Assembly: GCA_003339415.1 (NCBI GenBank)
Contig: PDHQ01000009.1
Location: forward strand, 280,106 to 344,105
Source of the DNA: Ophiocordyceps camponoti-saundersi (nom. inval.)
Taxonomy: Eukaryota; Ascomycota; Sordariomycetes; Hypocreales; Ophiocordycipitaceae
Length of the DNA: 64,000 nt
Direction of reading: 5' to 3'
Part shown: positions 1,388-43,853 of the stretch, one piece after another
Layout of the letters: every line of letters begins with the position of its first letter
Position numbering within the stretch: position 1 is the stretch's first letter
The notes under the pieces: generated by a model
Databases searched by the model: none
Seen by the model: only the letters and a program-made list of their open reading frames with translations
What the model was told of the DNA's origin: nothing
Program-made: the position numbers and the translations under genes

Positions 1388-4300
1388 ATGGCGATACCCA
1401 ATGGCTTGCCTCGCAAGTACGGACTGATACAAGTGTATCCAGACGAGGACGAAGATTCTATCCGAACAGAGTTAGAGTAAGTTCTCTCCTGACGTCTGCT
1501 TTCCTGCAGATTCTGACCTGGAGCAGCATCGTTGCCATCCACGGCTTAGATACTCATTCGCCAAAGGCATGGGTGGCTTGGAAGAGTGATGGCGACCCGT
1601 CTTCTGGACATGTCCACTGGCTTCAGGACAGAGACATGCTTCCTTCCGTGATACCAAATGCTCGCATCTTTACTTACGATTGGAACGCGGGCTTCGACAA
1701 CAATCCCGCAGCCATGTCCCTGTTCGGCCATGCCGAAGCATTGTTAGATCGGCTCCAGATTCAGAGATCCCAAGTAAGGATAGGAGTTCATGTCTCTGCT
1801 CTCGTGTTCTTCAGTCTAAGAGTAATGTGTCACAGCTTCCAGCGAATCGTCCCGTCATTTTCGTCGCGTCTTGTTTCGGTGGCCTATTGCTACTCAAGGT
1901 TTGCATCCAAGGACTTCATCACCTCAGTACAGAAGCTGATTGCTTACGCGCAGGCGCTAATCCGGGCGCGGGAGGCTCATGAGTTTAAAGACATCCTTAA
2001 GTCTACTCATGGTGTCGTATTTCTGGGAACTCCTTTTCAGGGGAGTAGCAATTCTTTCTACACCGCCACTGATCTGCGGATCGCCGTTGCGGTAGAGATG
2101 GGTTGTGACTGGAACGATGATTTGGTCAAGTATCTCAGAAATGACGCCCGGGGCCGAGGAGAGCTCGATGAGATTGTTCACCGGTTCTGCGAGATGGTGA
2201 ATGACGATGAATTCAAGCTTCCCATGATTTGTTTCTTCGAGAACCTGACGACAAACTTCACCAAAGTTATCGACAAACTCCCAGACAATTTCAAGATGTT
2301 GACCTCTAACAGTGGAATTGTAAGTTCGCCGTATCCTGTGGAGGTGAATGTAGCTGACCTTTGAGAACAGCTCGTCGAAAAACATTCAGCTTGCCTCCAA
2401 GGTATAAAATCGCAAGGATTAGACGTCAGACACTCATAAATTCCCGGGGCCCCAAGACGACGCCTATGTGAGAGTGTCTTTCCGCTTGATGAAGTTCGCA
2501 GACAAGGCATTGAAACCAAAGGGTTAGCAAAGATAATCTCTTGTACCATTCCAGAGTTGCTTCAGAGTGCTTCTTATGTATGTATGTATGTTATTGCATA
2601 TACGTATGCTAACATGACACTCGCTGCTATACATCTCCTTGGAGCCATCGATCAACAGCCACGGAAGCAGTGACAAAGACTATCACGCGGTCCTCCAACG
2701 ACTGAACACTTGTGCGTACCTGGATCGAAAAAATCGAAATACAAAACGTGTCCAAGGCACGTGCGACTGGTTCGTCTCACATGAAAAGTTCCAAGCCTGG
2801 CAGCACAGCACGTCGTCGGAAGTGCTTTGGGTGACGGCAGATCCGGGATGCGGCAAGTCAGTCTTGGCAAGGCATCTGGTTGATGAAGTTCTCCCGAAGC
2901 GTTCGAGGACAGTGTGTTACTTCTTCTTCAAGGAGGAGTACGACGACCAGCGAACGGCAATCGGCGCGCTCCGCTGCATCCTACTCCAGCTTTTCAGGGC
3001 GAGACCCGATCTACTCTCGCCCAGCATTCTCGGCGATCTCAAGATCCTTAGGGAAAGGTTAAACAACTCGTTTGGAGAACTCTGGAGTGCCCTCACCAAC
3101 GCCTCAGCTGCTCAGAGCGCCGGTGAGATCGTCTGCGTGCTCGATGCCCTTGATGAGTGCGAGTATCAGGGCATGTCTCAATTGATTGCCGAGATAAGGA
3201 GCCTCTGCGGAACAAAGAAAACGGAAAAGCACTTGAACTTGAAGTTTCTCATCACAAGCAGACCCTGTCGTCCGATCCGCATGGAGCTCAGATCTCTCGC
3301 ATCCCAAACATCGCCCATTATTCGCTTAAGTGGCGAAGACGAAGAGGAGGCTGCACAAATAGCCCAAGAAATACAGACCTTTATCAGGTTCAAGGTCCAG
3401 GATGTCGGAGCACGATTGCAGCTCTCGGACAGGAAGAAAAGTCTTCTGTGGGAGAAGCTTACGACAGTGCCTAACAGGACATACCTGTGGGCACACCTTT
3501 GCTTCGAGGTGATAGAGAAGGAATACAACATCGACAGACCCGGAATCAGAGAGATGGCTTCTCATCTTCCTGGAAGCTTGGACAAAGCGTATGACAGCAT
3601 CCTTTGCAAGACTTACAATGCTAGAATAACCAAGAGGATTCTACATATAGTTGTGGCAGCGGCTCGACCACTAACCTTGAGGGAGATGAACCTGGCCTTG
3701 AAGATTTACGAGAAAAAACCTCAATCCTTCGGCGACATTTCACTTCCAAGCGATAGTCGTTTTCAAGAGGAGTTGCGGGAGACGTGTGGGCTTTTCATAA
3801 CAGTCGTTGGCTCCAAGGTATACCTGCTTCACCAAACGGCAAAGGAATTCTTGGTCCAACCCAACAACGTGGGCTTTCGAGATTCAAGAGGCCTTGCTTG
3901 GAGACAGGTGCTCCAACGGCAAGAGTCTCATCGGATCCTTGCCGAGATCTGCATGCAGTACCTGCTTCTCAAAGAGTTTGAGAACTCTTCAGTAGAGGAT
4001 CAAGTGTCTGAATACGATCTTCTAGACTACTCGGCAAAGCATTGGGCCACTCATTTCCGGGAGTCACAGAAGAAGACACCGGAGATGACTGAATCAGCTC
4101 GTGCAATATGCAAAGCAGGATCAACCCGCTTCAAAACTTGGTTCAAAGTTTACTGGCCAAACATGAACACCGCAGTACCCGAGGGATTCACCACGCTCAT
4201 GGCCGCGTCTTACTTTGGTCTGATAAGCGTGGTAAAGTCTCTACTCACAGACGACGACGTTGATGTCGACGTTCTGGAGGCCACAAGTCATCGGTCCGCC

Positions 4301-5530
4301 CTGTCGTGGGCTGCTGAAGGCGGCTTTCACGACGTCGTCAAACTGTTGATCAAAGGCTCAGGATCCTCCTACCTCAGCTGCATCTCGAAATCAATACCAG
4401 GTATGAAAGTCACAGTTGACTCACCTGATAGTCAAGGCCGAACACCGTTATCACACGCCGTTTGGAGCGGGAACGTGGAGACCGTCAAGTATCTGGTTAA
4501 GGCCGGGGCTTCGGTAGGCTTCAAGGACGACATTGGTGGAACACCAGTTCTTTATGCCATCTTCAGCCATCAGGAAGAGATACTGGATATTCTCTTGAAA
4601 GGCAAACGCCGCGTTCTTGCAACCAAGGAAATTGGCGAGAAGCTCCTCCTTTCCGCAGCAAGGCAAGGCCAACTTTCCTTGATAAAGCTGCTACTCGATG
4701 CCAACGTCGATACGGAGACCAGAGATATTCATCAGAAAACGCCACTCTTTGCAGCTATCCTGAATAACCACCAAGAGGCGGCAAGACTTCTCCTTGACAG
4801 GGGAGCCAACAAAGAGGCCAGGGATTCTTACAAGAGGACGCCACTCACTACAGCCATAGAGAGCCAGAAAGAAAGGGCCACGAGACTGCTGATCGAAAAG
4901 GGCGCCGACATAGAGGCCAGGGATTGTTTCGAAAAGACACCACTTATTACAGCTATAGAGTACCACAGTAAAGCGGCCTTAAAACTGCTTCTCGAGAGAG
5001 GGGCCGATACTGAGGCAAGGGATAAGTACGCAAGAACACCACTAACTACAGCCATAGAGAGAAACAACGAAGCTGCCACGATACTACTCCTCAAAGAACC
5101 GCGCGTCGACATAGAGGCGAGGGACGATTACGAAAGAACACCGCTTATTATAGCCATAGAGAGACGCAACGAGGTGGCCATAAGACTGCTCCTCAAAGCA
5201 GGCGCTAACAAGGAGGCGAGGGATAAGTACGAAAGGACACCACTTATCGTAGCCATGCACAGCAGCACCGAAGTCGCTATAAGACTTCTCCTGGAAGAAG
5301 GTGTCGATGTGGAAGCAATGGATAACGAGGGGAAAACACCACTTGATATAGCTTCGGAGAGCTACAACGAAGTGGCCGCGAGACTGCTTATCGACGCTGG
5401 TGCCCAAGACACGCATCGTTGGTCGAGGAAAAGACTCACGAGACATGGCAATAGCAGCAGGAGCGAGGCAAATCTGATGAAGAAATCAGCGGAGAGAGAC
5501 ACAACAGGAGGAGAAGATGAGGCTGGCTGA
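1388..5530 (+). CDS. NLR-like protein: alpha/beta-hydrolase, NACHT, ankyrin repeats (exon model uncertain near 2402-2494)
   Basis: Proposed exons are 1388-1476, 1527-1773, 1836-1898, 1954-2319, 2371-2401, 2495-2577 and 2645-5530, giving 1254 codons in frame. The N-terminus reads DIVAIHGLDTHSPKAW and then FVASCFGG, a PGAP1/lipase-like hydrolase fold with Cys where the nucleophile Ser of GHSLGG would be. The NACHT domain has a P-loop (ADPGCGKSVLA) and a Walker B stretch (VCVLDALDECE). About 12 ankyrin repeats fill 4180-5420. The long exon has no ATG at its start. Its acceptor at 2644 pairs in phase with a GTATGT donor at 2578 and a GCTAAC branch site, so hydrolase and NACHT belong to one transcript. 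Read straight through without the 93-nt intron 2402-2494, the frame meets a TAA at 2437-2439. That intron has a weak acceptor, so a broken gene is possible. The acceptor at 1835 could also be 1814. Confidence 0.72.
4690..5412 (+). repeat. Tandem near-identical ankyrin repeats (99-nt period)
   Basis: At least seven consecutive 33-residue units share RTPLTTAIE-like cores followed by LLLE-GAD-EARD. They are clearly more alike to each other than the earlier, diverged ankyrin units at 4180-4690. Such internal similarity points to recent unit duplication or gene conversion, as known for repeat domains of fungal incompatibility NLRs. Confidence 0.8.
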
Positions 5531-21718: not shown

Positions 21719-24153
21719 GATTTTGGCTGTGCAAACATGCCACGGTGCCTTCTGAGTGGTTGGAAAGGGGAGACACAAGGGGAAAGAAAAGGGAGGAGAA
21801 ACTAAAAGAAGAGCGGAACTGCTTGGCTTGGATGTGGGAGCGACACTAAATAGATCTTGGTCGTGGGAGGAGAAAAGCAGTCGTATGTACGTGCGTACAT
21901 ATATAGATAGGTAGGTATGTCATAGAGCGAACAGAGTCTGATGGATGGTTCCGGTGAGAGAGACTGTTTGGGTGGTTGCATTCTAACTCTAGAACCTCTC
22001 GAGGCACGACTTGTGTAGAGTCATCGTAACGGGGCAAGGCGTCGAGACACGATCACAACGCGGAGGCGTACGTGGTAGAGGAGACCGCACGTTCGCCAGG
22101 TTGCAATGAAGAGAGTCTCAGTCTGTAACCATCTTTCTTCGTGCACTGATAGATTCCGACACGTACGGCCATGCCTGGTGGGATACATGATACACGGAAT
22201 CTCGTCAAGCTCTTACACAGTGGTCCATGCTACGCCCTATTATATAGTTCCTCGGGAAATAGAAGGCTGGTTAAACATAAGATGAATAATATTCTTGTTC
22301 TTTGTCTCTTCTCGAACCTGTCATGTTGAGATTCGTACGACAGGACTTGGGGAGTTATCCACAGCTATCCTTGAGTCCCGGAAACGTAGTGCATGTTTAC
22401 CCATTGATGAGATGACCTGAGACGGACGGTGTCCCTACCAAGTAATATACATAGGTAGGCAGACATCGTTGGCTAAACTCAAAGCAGCCTCTTCATAGCA
22501 CGCTCTGGCAATCGAAATCCCAACAAGTCATCAATACGCAGCTTGCCTTTACAGGAATAACTTAAGCCGATGAAATGGGTGAAACTCCGTCGGCTTATCA
22601 GGCTTGAAAAGATCAACGATGGCTTTTCCTGAGATGTTATCGTTTTTTTCTACATGGCCGACGTCGTCTATCGGCTGCCTTCCCCAATGTACTGATTCAA
22701 CAACAAAGGCTTAATTTAAGGTTATTTCTAAGGTTGTATTTACCTACAATCCCTGCCTAGCTTTGCATCCTGAATCAGCAATCGCCGTCACCACATACGT
22801 TATCCGTCCGTGGCTCGGCATTGATCTTGACACTCGAGATGATGATGATGAGGGTGATGTAGGGTTAGTAGGGTTTTGATCTGCTACAGGGTTAGAGCAT
22901 AGCTTGATCCTAGAAAATCACCTAAAATTGACTTTAACGTGCCAGCCTTGCCTGTCAGTTGGTTCTTCTCAGGGGGGGACGGCCAAGGCTATGTCTGGCT
23001 GTCATGCCAGCGACGTCGGGGAAAGGGAGACACAGCCCGATCATAACGCCTTGCGTGCGATGCAGGACTTGTCTGCATCTGATTCTGTAACTGAATACCA
23101 ACTACCTACCTAGGTAGGTAGGTATTGAACAGGCTGTTAACTGTGCATTGTAAAGAATTTCTCTTCGCTGATAATTTGGCACAGGTCGATGACAGAAAGG
23201 TACACTTCTAAGTAGGAAACGGGAAGCCAGGCTTCTTGTTAGCGGACCACCAGTAGGCATCACAACGGGCATACATACCTACTATGCTCAGGCATCTTCT
23301 CAAATACCTACCTGCGTTGCATAGGTATGCGTGGCGGCTACTTGTACATTTTCTCTATCGAGCCCTCTTGAACAGAAAGAGAGACAGTCTAGATGTTTCT
23401 CAACACACGAGTCAGTGAAAAGGATTGGCTTCACGTACATGTAAGATTGCCTTGCTACATACATCTATCATATATAGCACGTGGTTTAAAGTATGAACAT
23501 TTCTACTATCATAGATAAATTCGATCTAGCTGGTTATTTGTATGTAGAACGATCATAATTAGGAATATCTATAAACGGAATGTGACAATGTCACTGTTCT
23601 ATCTCGCCCAATCATCGTCAACTGTGAAACTCTGTAGCATTATCATCTTAGATTTTCTACTTTAGGGATTTCGATCCTGCGTTCCCTGTGCTCGCTCGTT
23701 CCGAACCTCATGGTTCCTGTTTTTGTGGTAATATAAAGAGTTGAAACTCTCTCTCACTGAGTGGAATAGATGTAAGGACAGAAGGCCGTTTCTCGAAACA
23801 CTTAAAACACGTAGGTCCAAGGTACGAGACGTCGGAGGAAACTGATCAATTGCGTTATGAAATCATGAAAGCGTATTTGTAAGAGAAGAACCGGTGCAAG
23901 AGCCTTGCATGAAAGAACTCTCTTCTCCACCGACTAAGACAAACAATTCGAATAAAACGAACCCCCCCCCCCCCCCCCCCCCCAACAAAAAAAAAAAAAA
24001 TAATTTCTATCCCGTTCCCATGCAACGACTGCTCGGTTACACGACCACGTGNNNNNNNNNNATGTTTGTTTGAAGGAAAAACGGGGTTTGGAGTCGTATG
24101 GTAAAAAACGCCGTTTCCCGGCGGAAAAAGAAAAAAAAGGCGAAGAAAGGGCC

Positions 24154-24184
<31 letters not shown>

Positions 24185-24221
24185 GGCTTCTTTCTGTACT
24201 CTATGCTCGAGCACTAGGATT
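21719..24221. other. Large spacer with scaffold gap
   Basis: About 2.5 kb without a recognisable gene. It includes a palindromic TACC/TAGG run at 23103-23125, homopolymer C and A runs at about 23960-24000 and 24150-24185, and a 10-N gap. Short telomere-like AGGGTTAG pieces near 22859-22895 are not arranged as an array. Confidence 0.5.
24052..24061. other. Assembly gap (10 N)
   Basis: Ten N characters. The flanks look like two versions of the same sequence, one of them noisy (see findings), so the gap probably does not represent missing DNA. Confidence 0.9.
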
Positions 24222-25976
24222 CTATTGTGATTTCAGTCTTCCTTCCTCGTCAATGTACCACTTAGATGTTGATGTTTGCGACGCGTTGTGGTAAGTCGGT
24301 AGATCTTCGCCCGGCACCGGTTCACACGATGTCTGACACTATAATCACCATCCTCATTATCACCCGATCGGTCTTGAAACAACGTCGTACACGGCCTACT
24401 CACCTGTTGAAGATCTTTCATTGCACCGTTTCGTTCAGCCTGCAAAAGCCCGTCAGATTAGCTGTAAAGGTCCACATTTCAGTTGCCAGAGACGGAGCGT
24501 CACTTACACGGCATCCATGATAGACTTGCCGCGAGACGTTATCATAATAGACTGGATAATTTCGCCGGCAGCAAAAGTATTGTTCTGCACCCATATTCCG
24601 TGTTCCCCAGACACATATCCTGTCCATGTATGCTTCCCGGCAATTGACACAAAAAGTCCAATCTGGGCCGAGTGAACTTGAACTTTCAGTCAAAGTACAT
24701 TTCTCTTTGCATTCTTTAAGCGTCGCTGATGGATTGCTTCCGGGGAAAGGGGGACTGGACTGATAATCGTCTGTCATCAGCTTATCTTTCTGTAGCGACT
24801 TGGCAATCGATTGGTCACGTCGTCATTGACGGGGGAGGTGAACAGGTAGGCAGATGAAGGTCAAACACCAAACGTACATAAACCTGCAAGAAATGTAGGG
24901 TTGGTAGGGTTAGATGACGGTTAACAACCAGCCTGCTCGTGGTTTTGGCGGCGAAGGGGTTTAACTTGCTTTCTGTAGTAAACATCACATTAGCACTCTG
25001 TAGCCAATGAAAGATGAACTGTTATCAGCCGACAAGATAGGCGCTTACTTCCTCCTATCATAGTTGACAGTTCTCCATTAGTTTATAAAGGTACGGCCCA
25101 GTCAACGGGATCAGACTTTGACGGGATAAACAAAGTGACGTACAATCTATCGCCGTTAGCCATATGAAAGCGTCGTCGCGCACATTGTTTTACTTGTACT
25201 TACAAGCTATCATGATTCCTGCTGTTAGAATCTCCGCTCCTGTATGTAGACAGCTCTTTTATTCGACGACGAAAGTCACTTACTGCCATCTAAAGTGGTT
25301 ATTCCATCCATTAGTATTTCGCTGGCGAGCCACACATTGCGGAACCGCCACCTACCAACTATCGTCACCCGTCAAGTTAGCTGCCTGCGAACCAGAAAAC
25401 TTCCTTTACGTCAAGGAGATACTCACATCCTGAAGCATCATTTGTCAGACGATGTGTCAAAATTCTCTCTTCATAGCGATGGTATAAGGAACCGCTCACC
25501 CACTGAGAAGATAATGTCGTGTTAGTCATGGCAATGTCCGTCAGTCCGAGAAGAAGAACTCACTTTCTGTGTGACAAAGTTCATATCAGCACGTCACCCG
25601 CCGTCAGTCAACTGGGCAATCATCGTGAGACACCATCGATCAGCTATCTTACTTTATCGTCCTACCACACGTCGTCAATATGCATCAAACCAGCTGGCAA
25701 CTTATTCGGCACGGGTGCCACTCACTTTGTATTTGTGCTATTGCCGTTCGTTGTGTTAGTTCGTCGTCACCGTCTAGCCGCAAAACCCTATCGCTCCAGT
25801 CTTTGAGGACTTACGTGGATCTGATTTGTTTCACGTCGCCTTTAGCTCTTCTTACTTGATCCGGCCATCGAGGAAAGAAGCTCACTCACGATTCCATCCC
25901 AGCTCTCTTCATTTGAGCTTGCTAATCCGGCATGCGGGCCCGCAAGCATTGTAAGCAGGAGAATGAAAGGACGCAT
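24222..25976 (-). CDS. Secreted cysteine-rich protein encoded by a 17-exon micro-exon gene
   Basis: Minus-strand exons: 25976-25890 (87 nt, signal peptide MRPFILLLTMLAGPHAGLA). Then 13 micro-exons at 25820-25815, 25737-25726, 25661-25653, 25566-25564, 25502-25500, 25429-25427, 25358-25356, 25289-25284, 25206-25204, 25146-25144, 25054-25049, 24972-24970 and 24883-24878. Finally 24789-24508, 24439-24404 and 24338-24222. Every exon is a multiple of three in phase 0. The sum is 588 nt, or 195 residues. Introns are 57-89 nt with GTGAGT/GTAAGT-like donors, CTAAC/CTGAC branch sites and YAG acceptors. The intron at 24969-24884 begins GCAAGT (GC-AG type). Micro-exons encode residues 30-51, a Lys/Asp/Glu-rich segment. 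The mature domain has 10 cysteines (ECKEKC, FCVNC, FCC, CQTSC). No family is recognised. The alternative is one ~1.1-kb intron with decoy sites, which I consider much less likely. Confidence 0.75.
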
Positions 25977-27346: not shown

Positions 27347-28888
27347 TCAAACACTGGGAGATCTGTCCTTCAAGCTTCTAATAATTTGGGTGAAATCGGG
27401 CTTCTTAAGAACCTTGACGTCCACCAGCGTCAAGTCGGCTTCGGTCTCCGATATATCATCCTCTGTATCAGATTGCGATCCAGACTCGGCAGATTTCGAT
27501 TGAGTGTCGGCAGATCTTGGACTCCTTCCTCCCCTCATGTCTAGATATCTTAACCTGGATTCATTAGTCGCTCCACAGTTGTCTCTCAGGTACTTGGGAG
27601 CCTCTGGCCAAGCTGGGTAATCCCGTGTGTAGAAACTCTTTCGCTTGGCTCCATTCCGGGAGGGACTCCAATAGCGTGGCCCCAAGTTAGAGACGTCATA
27701 TTCCCAGCCGCCGTTGAGGAGGCAACGCTTCGAAGTAGTGTCGAAACTGACAGCCTTGAATATTATCGGGGGAGGCTTGTGGCTAGTGCCTTCCCCGTAC
27801 CTTAAAAGGACCTGCGCAGATACTGGCTTCTTGTCAGGGTTCAAAGCCGGGTATTCAAAAGAGCAGTCCCTGAAAGGAATCTTGGGGGTTAAGCCGGGAG
27901 TAGATTCGTGAAGTATAACGTCTCCATAGCGAGTGAGGTTGCGCGGATACCGCGGATTCGGTTGCGTCCAAAACTGATCGGACACAATCGGGGCCCAGTA
28001 TGAGCGTATTAGCTTGGGCATGGAGGCGGCGGCGAGGACACTAATATTTGGCCATTGAGTGGGAGCCCTTATATTGTAGAGGCAGTCGGGTACGGCCACG
28101 GGTAGCATCCCGCACCGGCCCTTGTACCGGACGACGAAAGACACTGTTACATGCTTGCATGTCATTCTTGGTTCGCAGTCAAGCAAGCTCTGATCTATAT
28201 CGGTCTCGTCATAGCCAGAGAAAGAATCTGCGCTGGATCCGTGATTTACTCCGATGGTTGAGGAGTTCGTCTTGGATTTGCTGTAATGGTCCGTCAAGGT
28301 TTTGCCGGAGTGTGATTCAGAAGTTCCTCCTCCACCCCAGGTGGTGGAAGCACCGCCTTCGAATATTCCAGGGATCCCGCCGCCGCCGTGGACTGTTCCA
28401 GAGCCTTCCCAATGCTTTCCGCTAGAGCTACCACTTTCACTTGTGTTCGTATGGCTACTCTCACCCGTGTCCGATATCGTAGTTTGATCAGTGTTTTCGT
28501 AGTTCCATCCGAGTCTTTGTGTACTTGTCTTTGCGTGTGACTTGATAGTGGTTTTTGAGAAGCCATGCCACAAACTGTCCTGGATGGCATGTCCAATATC
28601 GAACTCCAAGCTGATATCTTCGAGTATTGTCCAGCGTAGGTGAATGCATTTTGGAATTTCACGAGATGTATTCGTTATGTTGTTCGTAGACACTGAAGCG
28701 AGCGGGGCCTCCGTGTAAGGAATATGATCAATGGAGTCGAAGGGCTCAAAGACTTCGACCACGTCACGTATCCTCGCATCGTTTTTCACACGATTCGTGA
28801 TGTCGACGGGCACAAATTACCCCTGCTCGGCCACCGTGGAAGCGGCCATCAAGGCGACCAGGCTGCTAAAAACAATAGTAGGAATCAT
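27347..28888 (-). CDS. Putative secreted aerolysin/MTX2-like beta-pore-forming protein, start region interrupted
   Basis: A frame of nearly 490 codons on the minus strand ends at 27347. It has no ATG of its own near the start. In the same frame, ATG at 28888 opens a signal peptide (MIPTIVFSSLVALMAAS), but a TAA at 28819-28817 separates the two. A 48-nt intron with donor GTAATT and acceptor GCGAG would remove the stop in phase. Otherwise the gene is broken by one nonsense codon. The middle third alternates Ser/Thr with other residues around a glycine-rich turn (GGGGIPGIFEGG ... TTWGGGG), resembling the membrane-inserting hairpin of aerolysin/ETX-MTX2 proteins. Several cysteines follow. The tail is acidic and Ser-rich. 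The function assignment is inference from pattern only. Confidence 0.5.
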
Positions 28889-40533: not shown

Positions 40534-41560
40534 ATGGACACGCCTCGGCAATGGCAGCGTCGCGACTCGCAGCAGACGCTGATTTCTCTACTGCAGTTGG
40601 ATCCGTCGCCGATAGATTCGCCGCCCCCGTCGCCGTCGCCGATTCATGACAAGGAGTTGCCGCCGCTGCCGGCGCGGAGTGGCTCTTCGACGACTGGTGC
40701 ACCGGGGCTGAGCGCGAACGGTGGCCGCGGCGCAATCTTTTATCGTGCGTGTCGTCGATCCATCTTTTCTATCTCTGTCTGTCTTTTTCTCTCTTCCTGT
40801 CTCTCCCTAACTAGGTAGCCTCCCTTTCTTTACAGTGACGCGACTGCAGCGGTACTCGAGCTTCGCCACCGGCCTCTTCGCGTCCATACACCTCGCCAAC
40901 GTCTCGTTGATACCACTCGCAACGCGATCCGTCCCCGGCTCCGAAACGTATCTTCTCATGACGCGCGAGATCTACCAGACGCCTCTGGCTGAGCCGCTGG
41001 TGGTGGCTCTGCCCGTGTTGGCGCACGTCGGCGCTGGTCTTGCCCTGCGACTGTTAAGGCGATGGCAGAACATGCGAAGGTACGGGGCCGCGACGCCCGC
41101 CATGTACGCTCTGCACCGAAAACGAACAGCGACCAATGACAGCGTGAGGCTGTGGCCGTCGCTTAGCTACGTCTCGGCTTCGGGCTATGTCCTGACTGTC
41201 TTGTACGCCGCCCACGTAGCCGTCAACCGCGTCCTGCCGCTGGTTGTCGAGGGCGACAGCGCCAACATCGGGCTGGCGTACGTTGCTCACGGCTTTGCTC
41301 GCCATCCGGGACTGGCATTGGCTGCCTACGCCGGTCTTATCGCCACAGCCTGCGGACACATGGCCTGGGGAACGGCTCGATGGCTCGGTCTCGCCGACGG
41401 TCGTTCCTCTAAGCGGCGGCGGATGGGTGTCAATGCTGCGGCTGCCGGCATGGCGGCGCTCTGGGCTGCTGGTGGGCTAGGCGTCGTGGCGAGGGGGGGA
41501 GCGGCTCAGGGTTGGGTCGCGGCGGCTTACGATCATATGCTTGCTGCTGTGCGGCTGTGA
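40534..41560 (+). CDS. mcp1: MCP1-like mitochondrial outer-membrane protein (DUF1691)
   Basis: Exons 40534-40744 and 40836-41560 (91-nt intron) give 311 residues. After a Pro/Ser-rich N-terminus, the two repeated DUF1691-type units appear. The first contains RLQRYSSFATGLFASIHLAN with TREIYQTP; the second contains LSYVSASGYVLTVLYAAHV and GLAYVAHGFARHP. About five hydrophobic helices are visible, with conserved His residues. In yeast, Mcp1 relieves loss of ERMES contact sites and interacts with Vps13 in lipid transfer. That role is inferred from family. Confidence 0.87.
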
Positions 41561-42173
41561 GCAAGGTGGGAGCAGCGCGCTAGGTTTTGTGTTTCCTGCT
41601 TTGGGGGGCGTTATCGGGGTTTCGTGATATAGCATTGCTTTGGCAGCAGGAAGGCAGAAGGGGGGCGTTTTATATTCTGGTATGGATGGGGCTGCCAGCT
41701 GGCAATGGCGGCATCCACAGTGTACTCTCAAAGACAATGTACGATAGGGAGCGAATATATGTATGTAGATTTCTCGACACTTGGATGACGTTGTCTTTAA
41801 GCTGTTTCATACCTGTTCCGTTGCGATTTCTTGGAGGTGTGAAGCAGCAGCATCTTCGGAGCGGGTGCTTCCGATCTCCGAGGCAGCTCTATCGGTATAG
41901 CGCCAAAACGCCGTTTGCTCTAACCACTACCCGTACTCCTCCACTCATCATCCTTTCCTCCACTCATCTCCTCTCCACCCATCTCTTCTTTTCTCCTCTC
42001 CTCTCCTCTCCTCTCCACCTCCCTTCTTCTCCCACTGTGGGCCGCTGCATCCTGGATAGCCTCGGATCAGCGATCATTAAAGATAAACACCCTGACCCAC
42101 TTACGCCTCGTTCTCCTCTCCTCCACTTCATCCCTGCCAAGAACCACCACCCGTTTCGAAGCCGCCGGCTGTG
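41561..42173. other. Spacer with TCTCC microsatellite
   Basis: Promoter and leader of the F-box gene. A pyrimidine microsatellite (CTCTC)n lies at about 41991-42017. No gene. Confidence 0.5.
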
Positions 42174-43853
42174 ATGGCTGGGGTTAAGCGCCCACAAGTG
42201 CCCGATGGCGGCGGAAACGACATTGACGAAGTTCGCCCGCCTCCTGCACTTCGCCACTCCGCCGCCTTGCCGAAAGACTTCGTCTCGACGCTGTCCGACG
42301 AGATCCTCGTTCGCATCCTGTCCTACATGGACGAGAGTGAATTGCTCAGCATCTCACTCGTCTCGCGTCGTCTGAACCGAGTAACTGCCGATTCGCAACT
42401 TTGGCGAGTTCATTGCTTCTCTCGGTTCATTGTTCCCCGCTTCCGTCGTTTCTCGCGGGCTCAACCTACGATGCCTGTTCTGCGCCGCAGAATCGTGGAC
42501 AGCAATAGTGACGCCGACCACGACCAGAAGATCGACTGGAAAAAGCAGTATATGCTGCGACACAACTGGTCTAAAGGCCAATGTGTGACTAGTCAGCTTC
42601 TCATTCGAGACGCCAACCTGCCGTCGTCGACGCAGCTACCGGCATCGCCCAAGTGGCAGACTTTGGTCAAGGTGGTTGATGGCTTGGCAGTGACGGCTGA
42701 TGCTCGGGCTGGTCTGCGGGCGTGGAATCTCAGGACTCGCAGTCTCATCGCTAAAATCGACCTGGATGGACCCCTTTACCTTCATCCTACGTGCCTGGTT
42801 CTCGACGATCAGCAGCTGGAGAAGTCGGCCTTGCTTGACATCTCGGCTGGCTTCCACCGAGGCACTTTTGCAGTGTGGCGGCTCGATATTCGTCAGCGGA
42901 AACTGGTCCCGCTGTACTGCCAGGAAAGCGGTGATTGCGATCCACTCGTCGCCATTGCATATCAGCATCCATATATACTAACAATGTCCAGTTCCAGCTC
43001 TCTCTGCCTCTGGGCCTTTGACTCGATCGACAAAGACGACGATAGCGGAAGATCTGCGGATGCGCTGCAGCTCGGCTCGCCTCGTCAGCTCACATCGCTC
43101 AAGTCGCATTCCCAACACATGCCGGTGACACTGTCGATCCGCAATACTGCGACGGCAGTGGTGGCCTCTCTCGTATACACTTCTCACTCGCTGGATGGTT
43201 GGATCATCAGCATTCATGATCAGGACATATATCGACCTGAAGGGCAGTCGCTTGTCGAAGCCTTCAGGTCTCGCAAGGCCTCCACAAGTCCCACAAGGAC
43301 GCGTTTATCCGAACTGGCTTCTGAGAGGCGGCTGCGGCGGCTACGGCGGCGGTGGCGGCGCGGCGGTGGCGGCTGCTTTGAAGACGACGACGACGACGAC
43401 GACGAAGGAGAAGCTGACGACGAGTTAGACGGTCCCATCCGGCTATCCTACAACCATCCATACCTTCTGGTTACGCTACCTGACAACTGCATGATTATTT
43501 ATCTGTGTACGGCGACGGCTACATCTATGACCATCTCACCAGGCACCCATCTCTGGGGCCACACGTCGGGAATTGCGGACGCGGAGATAACGCAGCGAGG
43601 GAAAGCCGTTAGCGTCAGCTCGCGAGGTGAGGAAATGAGGGTATGGGATCTGGAAGGGCGGTTCGATGCCGCCAGCATCGAGGTTCGGCCTCGGAAGCCG
43701 ACGGGGGAGGGGCAGGAGCCGGAGATCGCGACGTCTCTCGATGCCGATTACTCAAGCATGAAGAAATGGGTCGGCTTCGACGATGAGATGATTGTTGTTC
43801 TCAAGGAGGAGAAGAATGGGGAGCAAAATCTAGTGATTCATGATTTTGCCTGA
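42174..43853 (+). CDS. F-box protein with beta-propeller-like repeats
   Basis: An intronless protein of 559 residues. The ATG at 42174 is the first in frame. An F-box lies at about 35-80 (LSDEILVRILSYMDESELLSISLVSRRLNR ending LWRVHC). The C-terminal two thirds contain WD40-like strands (GLRAWNLRTRSLIAKI, LCLWAFDSIDKD, MRVWDLEGRF). A low-complexity arginine/glycine stretch followed by a run of 7 Asp (about residues 380-410) interrupts the propeller. It likely serves as the substrate receptor of an SCF ubiquitin ligase. The substrate is unknown. Confidence 0.88.
   Translation: MAGVKRPQVPDGGGNDIDEVRPPPALRHSAALPKDFVSTLSDEILVRILSYMDESELLSISLVSRRLNRVTADSQLWRVHCFSRFIVPRFRRFSRAQPTMPVLRRRIVDSNSDADHDQKIDWKKQYMLRHNWSKGQCVTSQLLIRDANLPSSTQLPASPKWQTLVKVVDGLAVTADARAGLRAWNLRTRSLIAKIDLDGPLYLHPTCLVLDDQQLEKSALLDISAGFHRGTFAVWRLDIRQRKLVPLYCQESGDCDPLVAIAYQHPYILTMSSSSSLCLWAFDSIDKDDDSGRSADALQLGSPRQLTSLKSHSQHMPVTLSIRNTATAVVASLVYTSHSLDGWIISIHDQDIYRPEGQSLVEAFRSRKASTSPTRTRLSELASERRLRRLRRRWRRGGGGCFEDDDDDDDEGEADDELDGPIRLSYNHPYLLVTLPDNCMIIYLCTATATSMTISPGTHLWGHTSGIADAEITQRGKAVSVSSRGEEMRVWDLEGRFDAASIEVRPRKPTGEGQEPEIATSLDADYSSMKKWVGFDDEMIVVLKEEKNGEQNLVIHDFA

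Follow-up and report, generated by a model that had tools for sequence, protein, structure and literature searches.

Can a fungal gene be built around a run of exons of only one to four codons each? The question is raised by a window of 64,000 nucleotides (the whole stretch of DNA analysed here; assembly GCA_003339415.1, contig PDHQ01000009.1, positions 280,106 to 344,105) from Ophiocordyceps camponoti-saundersi, an ant pathogen of the Hypocreales whose assembly comprises 45.7 Mb in 733 contigs and which belongs to the O. unilateralis complex (PMC11057048). On the minus strand of this window, positions 25976 to 24222 read as a start exon, 13 micro-exons, a cysteine-rich exon and two further exons. 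As far as genomic DNA alone allows, it is on balance probable that this is a real protein-coding gene resembling the micro-exon genes (MEGs) of schistosomes, in which in-frame micro-exons can vary a secreted and possibly host-facing protein, and it is very likely that the array is truly spliced as micro-exons.

This gene model had been proposed in an earlier note, made from the sequence without database searches, and its coordinates, spliced length, phase pattern and intron range were all borne out when the minus strand was checked base by base. The spliced coding sequence amounts to 588 nt including the stop codon, with micro-exons of 6, 12, 9, 3, 3, 3, 3, 6, 3, 3, 6, 3 and 6 nt in order. Each of the 17 exons has a length divisible by three, lies in phase 0 and is free of internal stops, and each of the 16 introns measures 57-89 nt and ends in YAG. 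Exact GTRAGT stands at half of the array donors (7 of 14) and GCAAGT at one. The best branch-like site is an exact CTAAC or CTGAC in 8 of the 14 array introns and carries one mismatch in the other six, at distances of 9 to 47 nt to the end of the intron (more than 30 nt in three introns); because a site with one mismatch readily arises by chance, these sites are by themselves weak support for the array. The features of the gene are given below, the posterior of each micro-exon being stated both without a frame rule (unconstrained) and with exons held to multiples of three without stops (framed).

25890..25976, minus strand: exon 1, 87 nt, with the start codon and a signal-peptide-like N terminus (sequence and translation; signal peptide by eye)
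24790..25889, minus strand: micro-exon array with 14 introns (57-89 nt), every one having a donor, a branch-like site and an acceptor
25815..25820, minus strand: micro-exon 1, 6 nt; posterior 0.98 unconstrained, 1.0 framed
25726..25737, minus strand: micro-exon 2, 12 nt; 0.997 unconstrained, 1.0 framed
25653..25661, minus strand: micro-exon 3, 9 nt; 0.96 unconstrained, 0.999 framed
25564..25566, minus strand: micro-exon 4, 3 nt, AAA; 0.98 unconstrained, 0.994 framed
25500..25502, minus strand: micro-exon 5, 3 nt, TGG; 0.955 unconstrained, 0.985 framed
25427..25429, minus strand: micro-exon 6, 3 nt, GAT; 0.96 unconstrained, 0.993 framed
25356..25358, minus strand: micro-exon 7, 3 nt, TTG; 0.59 unconstrained, 0.94 framed
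25284..25289, minus strand: micro-exon 8, 6 nt; 0.87 unconstrained, 0.97 framed
25204..25206, minus strand: micro-exon 9, 3 nt, CTT; 0.38 unconstrained, 0.995 framed
25144..25146, minus strand: micro-exon 10, 3 nt, ATT; 0.88 unconstrained, 0.94 framed
25049..25054, minus strand: micro-exon 11, 6 nt, GAGGAA; 0.68 unconstrained, 0.89 framed
24970..24972, minus strand: micro-exon 12, 3 nt, AAA, followed by the GC donor and the least certain of the series; 0.27 unconstrained, 0.68 framed
24878..24883, minus strand: micro-exon 13, 6 nt; 0.93 unconstrained, 0.95 framed
24508..24789, minus strand: exon 15, 282 nt, cysteine-rich (8 Cys in 94 residues of the translation)
24404..24439, minus strand: exon 16, 36 nt (sequence and translation)
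24222..24338, minus strand: exon 17, 117 nt, with the stop codon and two more Cys (translation); single copy in the genome

Two micro-exons have competitors in this list. A 15-nt alternative to micro-exon 9 (25218-25204) reaches 0.59 when unconstrained and carries in-frame stops, and a 9-nt rival to micro-exon 12 at 24997-24989 reaches 0.14 unconstrained and 0.28 framed. Beyond the end of the gene, starting within about 40 bases of its stop codon, positions 23980-24190 hold two T runs that each lead into some 20 G and are separated by 10 N, which suggests a gap in the assembly or an artefact of sequencing.

The array was set against chance by a scan that covers both strands, is not supplied with the location, and joins introns of 45-100 nt into chains across exons of 3-15 nt, scoring donor, branch site and acceptor by general fungal preferences. 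The array emerges as the single outlier of the window, with 92.6 bits over 14 introns and the next best chain at no more than 12.4; in this chain the ninth micro-exon takes its 15-nt form rather than CTT. By comparison, the top score was 15.4 bits among 40 shuffles of the whole window and 22.2 bits when the 1477-nt region was shuffled 3000 times (Markov orders 1, 2 and 3, 1000 times each). Elsewhere in this genome, 244,102 bases yielded at best 17.3 bits, and the opposite strand of the array region scored 5.5. Weak three-intron chains resembling micro-exons, at 17.3 bits and inside the shuffle range, occur in two stretches of the other DNA sampled, L006 (near 7611, plus strand) and L025. The class of exon lengths that are multiples of three leads the other two classes by more than 66 bits, and when lengths up to 15 nt were left free all 13 segments were multiples of three. 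A model with one single 1.1-kb intron scores about 54 bits below the array.

Small fungal introns are recognised as units, and each of the 14 introns of the array is short enough for individual recognition by intron definition. Since two splice sites 3 nt apart cannot be occupied together, joining would probably be stepwise, with successive removal of the introns and the micro-exons added in turn. As the micro-exons consist of whole codons in phase 0, the reading frame survives the skipping of any one of them, whereas an intron retained alone, whichever of the 16 it is, brings in a stop (12 introns) or a frameshift (4 introns, with lengths not divisible by three). Frame-safe skipping set against frame-breaking retention is the pattern expected if the protein tolerates, or benefits from, variants differing by one to four residues. 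Variable inclusion would yield isoforms that vary by as many as 22 residues in the stretch linking the signal peptide to the cysteine-rich part, though whether such combinatorial isoforms are made is judged an even question.

The hydrophobic, signal-peptide-like N terminus encoded by exon 1 allows good confidence that the product is secreted; it would also be disulphide-bonded and face the ant host. A relative from the O. unilateralis complex raises 61 small secreted proteins during manipulated biting, and of all proteins of this class in its genome 49% were unique to the complex (PMC4545319). Such proteins make a host-facing role plausible here, though they say nothing on this gene itself, and a role directed at the host is rated just short of evenly probable. 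The gene would work like a schistosome MEG and be of independent origin.

Several points weigh against this reading. When no frame rule is applied, a 28-nt exon at 24997-24970, whose length is not divisible by three, outscores micro-exon 12 (0.47 against 0.27). The splice weights of the scan were general fungal ones fixed after the array had been seen, with no training on this genome, and no second array appeared in the approximately 308 kb scanned of 45.7 Mb. Secretion is read from an N terminus judged by eye, and the 22 residues encoded by the micro-exons show no amphipathic helix pattern (permutation p = 0.94). Neither an orthologue nor a paralogue was found by a word-based protein search or by protein and DNA searches of the species' own genome. 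In the former, exon 15 met no protein sharing three 5-residue words among candidates of 74-234 aa in a database of 5.8 billion proteins; in the latter, with E values up to 10, the exon 15 protein, the exon 17 protein and the DNA of the whole gene returned only the gene itself, the best first-look candidates being scored, one each.

Because the protein database holds at least one annotated protein from the same contig, the micro-exon gene is probably unannotated there or modelled at another length, and a fast-evolving orthologue would evade a word search, as even the pof12 protein of this window shares no more than 71% identity with the closest relative listed for any other species. Exon 15 matches no Pfam family at E 0.001, and a sequence search of the PDB with E up to 10 gave five weak matches, with the entry v31Bagel8 in first place (E 0.0016). 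An origin of the array by recent duplication of a unit of intron plus exon is unsupported, because no pair among the 16 introns exceeds the best shuffled pairs in likeness (top pair 22, shuffle maxima up to 24). The mean similarity among the introns is raised, at 13.2 against 12.1 in shuffles (standard deviation of the shuffle means 0.22, a difference of about 5 standard deviations), behind which shared branch-type motifs could lie.

The alternative that survives best accepts the array as real and gives it another main role, that of limiting or timing expression, in that 16 short introns and hard-to-splice exons of 3 nt would keep correct mRNA rare outside certain conditions, mis-spliced RNA would be destroyed and isoforms would be irrelevant. 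The loss of frame on retention of any single intron fits this explanation, as do several weak donors in the gene (GCAAGT, GTACGT twice, GTAGGT), and Trichoderma Xlr2 offers a case of one microexon that serves as a switch dependent on glucose (PMC11121469). Control by mis-splicing does not, however, require exons that are multiples of three in phase 0 throughout, and the explanation is held to be unlikely, if not negligibly so. Considerably less probable is recursive (ratchet) splicing of one 1.1-kb intron, in which the 3-12 nt segments would be landing sites absent from the mRNA; acceptors and donors only a few bases apart do look like recursive splice sites, and recursive-splicing exons are known from animals (PMC6224609). 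Yet landing sites need no set length, which leaves the three-fold lengths of all 13 segments in the free scan to 15 nt without a reason, and the need for 13 steps over 1.1 kb in a fungus is hard to see. Classical ratchet sites, moreover, have zero bases between acceptor and donor, unlike the segments of 3-12 nt found here.

Equally improbable is that the gene is a relic or unexpressed, its layout recording a real history and the gene now being silent. This would agree with the failure of any database protein of 74-234 aa to share three words with exon 15 and of relatives to be found, but decay would soon break some of the 32 splice sites, and here the 17 exons are still open and every one of the 16 introns keeps a plausible donor and acceptor; exons this small are also commonly missed by gene annotation, as a plant study reports (PMC8831610). 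That a reader seeking splice sites picked out a chance pattern, to which short and degenerate motifs lend themselves, has a vanishing probability, and chance is for practical purposes excluded as the origin of the array, which a location-blind scan of both strands returned as its sole outlier, more than 70 bits above the best shuffle.

If the reading as a MEG-like gene with spliced micro-exons is confirmed by cDNA, this would be, to our knowledge and as far as the literature searches reach, the densest run of tiny exons in a fungus. Confirmation would also mean that micro-exon genes arose independently once more in host-dependent organisms, besides flatworms and aphids, and would make the recurrent invention of such genes by parasites testable where introns are small and spliced by intron definition. 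The way in which a spliceosome handles thirteen successive exons of 3-12 nt would become visible as well. Since gene predictors skip exons this small, further genes of this kind may sit unannotated in fungal genomes, and a confirmed case would be a warning that entire genes may be absent from the effector catalogues of insect-pathogenic fungi. The broadest proposal, that zombie-ant fungi independently evolved micro-exon genes whose arrays of one- to four-codon exons and short introns give many in-frame variants of an ant-directed secreted protein, is put forward tentatively, as rather less probable than not.

Other genes of the window were noted in passing. Next to the micro-exon gene lies a 488-aa open frame at 27347-28813 on the minus strand, without a Pfam family at E 0.001. 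On the plus strand, an open frame of 963 aa at 2639-5530 combines an NPHP3_N/NACHT-type domain, a winged helix and many ankyrin repeats, and is a candidate for an NLR-like fungal receptor. A pof12-like F-box open reading frame at 42171-43853 is 100% identical over 61% of length to the annotated CP533_0177 of this species (895 aa; 40534-43853, plus strand), which holds PF07950 together with the pof12-like F-box part. PF07950 also occurs in a 969-aa model of O. camponoti-leonardi, the only one among the 120 relatives listed, and the union of PF07950 with the pof12-like part is possibly a shared gene-prediction fusion.

No published fungal micro-exon array was found among the matches listed in the open-access literature, in agreement with the earlier note, which knew of no described fungal counterpart; nearest come the microexon of Trichoderma virens Xlr2 and the exons of Phanerochaete chrysosporium P450 genes. 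Trichoderma belongs to the Hypocreales, and the shared feature of Xlr2 is a microexon in a fungus of that order. It differs in being one 20-nt, glucose-switched exon of a transcription factor, with no array and no secreted product, and functional microexons had been undescribed in filamentous fungi according to that study (PMC11121469). The Phanerochaete genes share small exons (down to 6 bp) and a high frequency of 45-55 bp introns, but their small exons are scattered over many genes and no run of 3-nt exons is described in the accessible part of the source (PMC1184071).

The earlier note had also drawn two animal parallels, of which that with schistosome MEGs holds closely in architecture and that with the bicycle genes of aphids holds less well. 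Bicycle genes have many micro-exons of one phase and encode putative effectors with little similarity to other proteins, but their internal exons are almost all of phase 2 (PMC9168663), which makes the parallel the weaker one, all exons here being of phase 0; they also form a large insect family, against one known gene in a fungus. Schistosome MEGs, in contrast, have long outer exons with the signal peptide in the first and a central run of micro-exons, 26 out of the 33 in one set being symmetric (PMC4671649), and their exons are mostly multiples of three, the majority of 15 bp, with introns of 100 to almost 5000 bp (PMC10526429). The Ophiocordyceps gene has the same long outer exons, its 87-nt 5' exon encoding a hydrophobic N terminus that by eye resembles a signal peptide, and its 13 central exons of 3-12 nt fall below the 36 bp that marks MEGs and are all multiples of three, one of them with a 28-nt rival. 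MEGs encode small secreted proteins (PMC4671649, PMC10526429), to which the probably secreted product here would correspond. Alternative splicing into several protein forms also belongs to the MEG layout, and the isoforms proposed here would be its counterpart. The differences lie in the organism (flatworm against fungus), in the three exons that come after the array, in exon size (3-81 or 6-81 bp in MEGs; here 7 of 13 have only 3 nt and the longest 12) and in the introns, which at 57-89 nt are far from the long introns (~0.1-5 kb) characteristic of MEGs. No candidate relation of exon 15 to MEG proteins came from the word search or from Pfam, no direct comparison with MEGs being made; the stretch encoded by the micro-exons is in any case too short for sequence comparison with them. 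Given the shorter introns and the lack of a sequence relation found, the gene is therefore regarded as MEG-like in its working and is not placed in the MEG family, and its likeness to the schistosome genes would be one of convergence.
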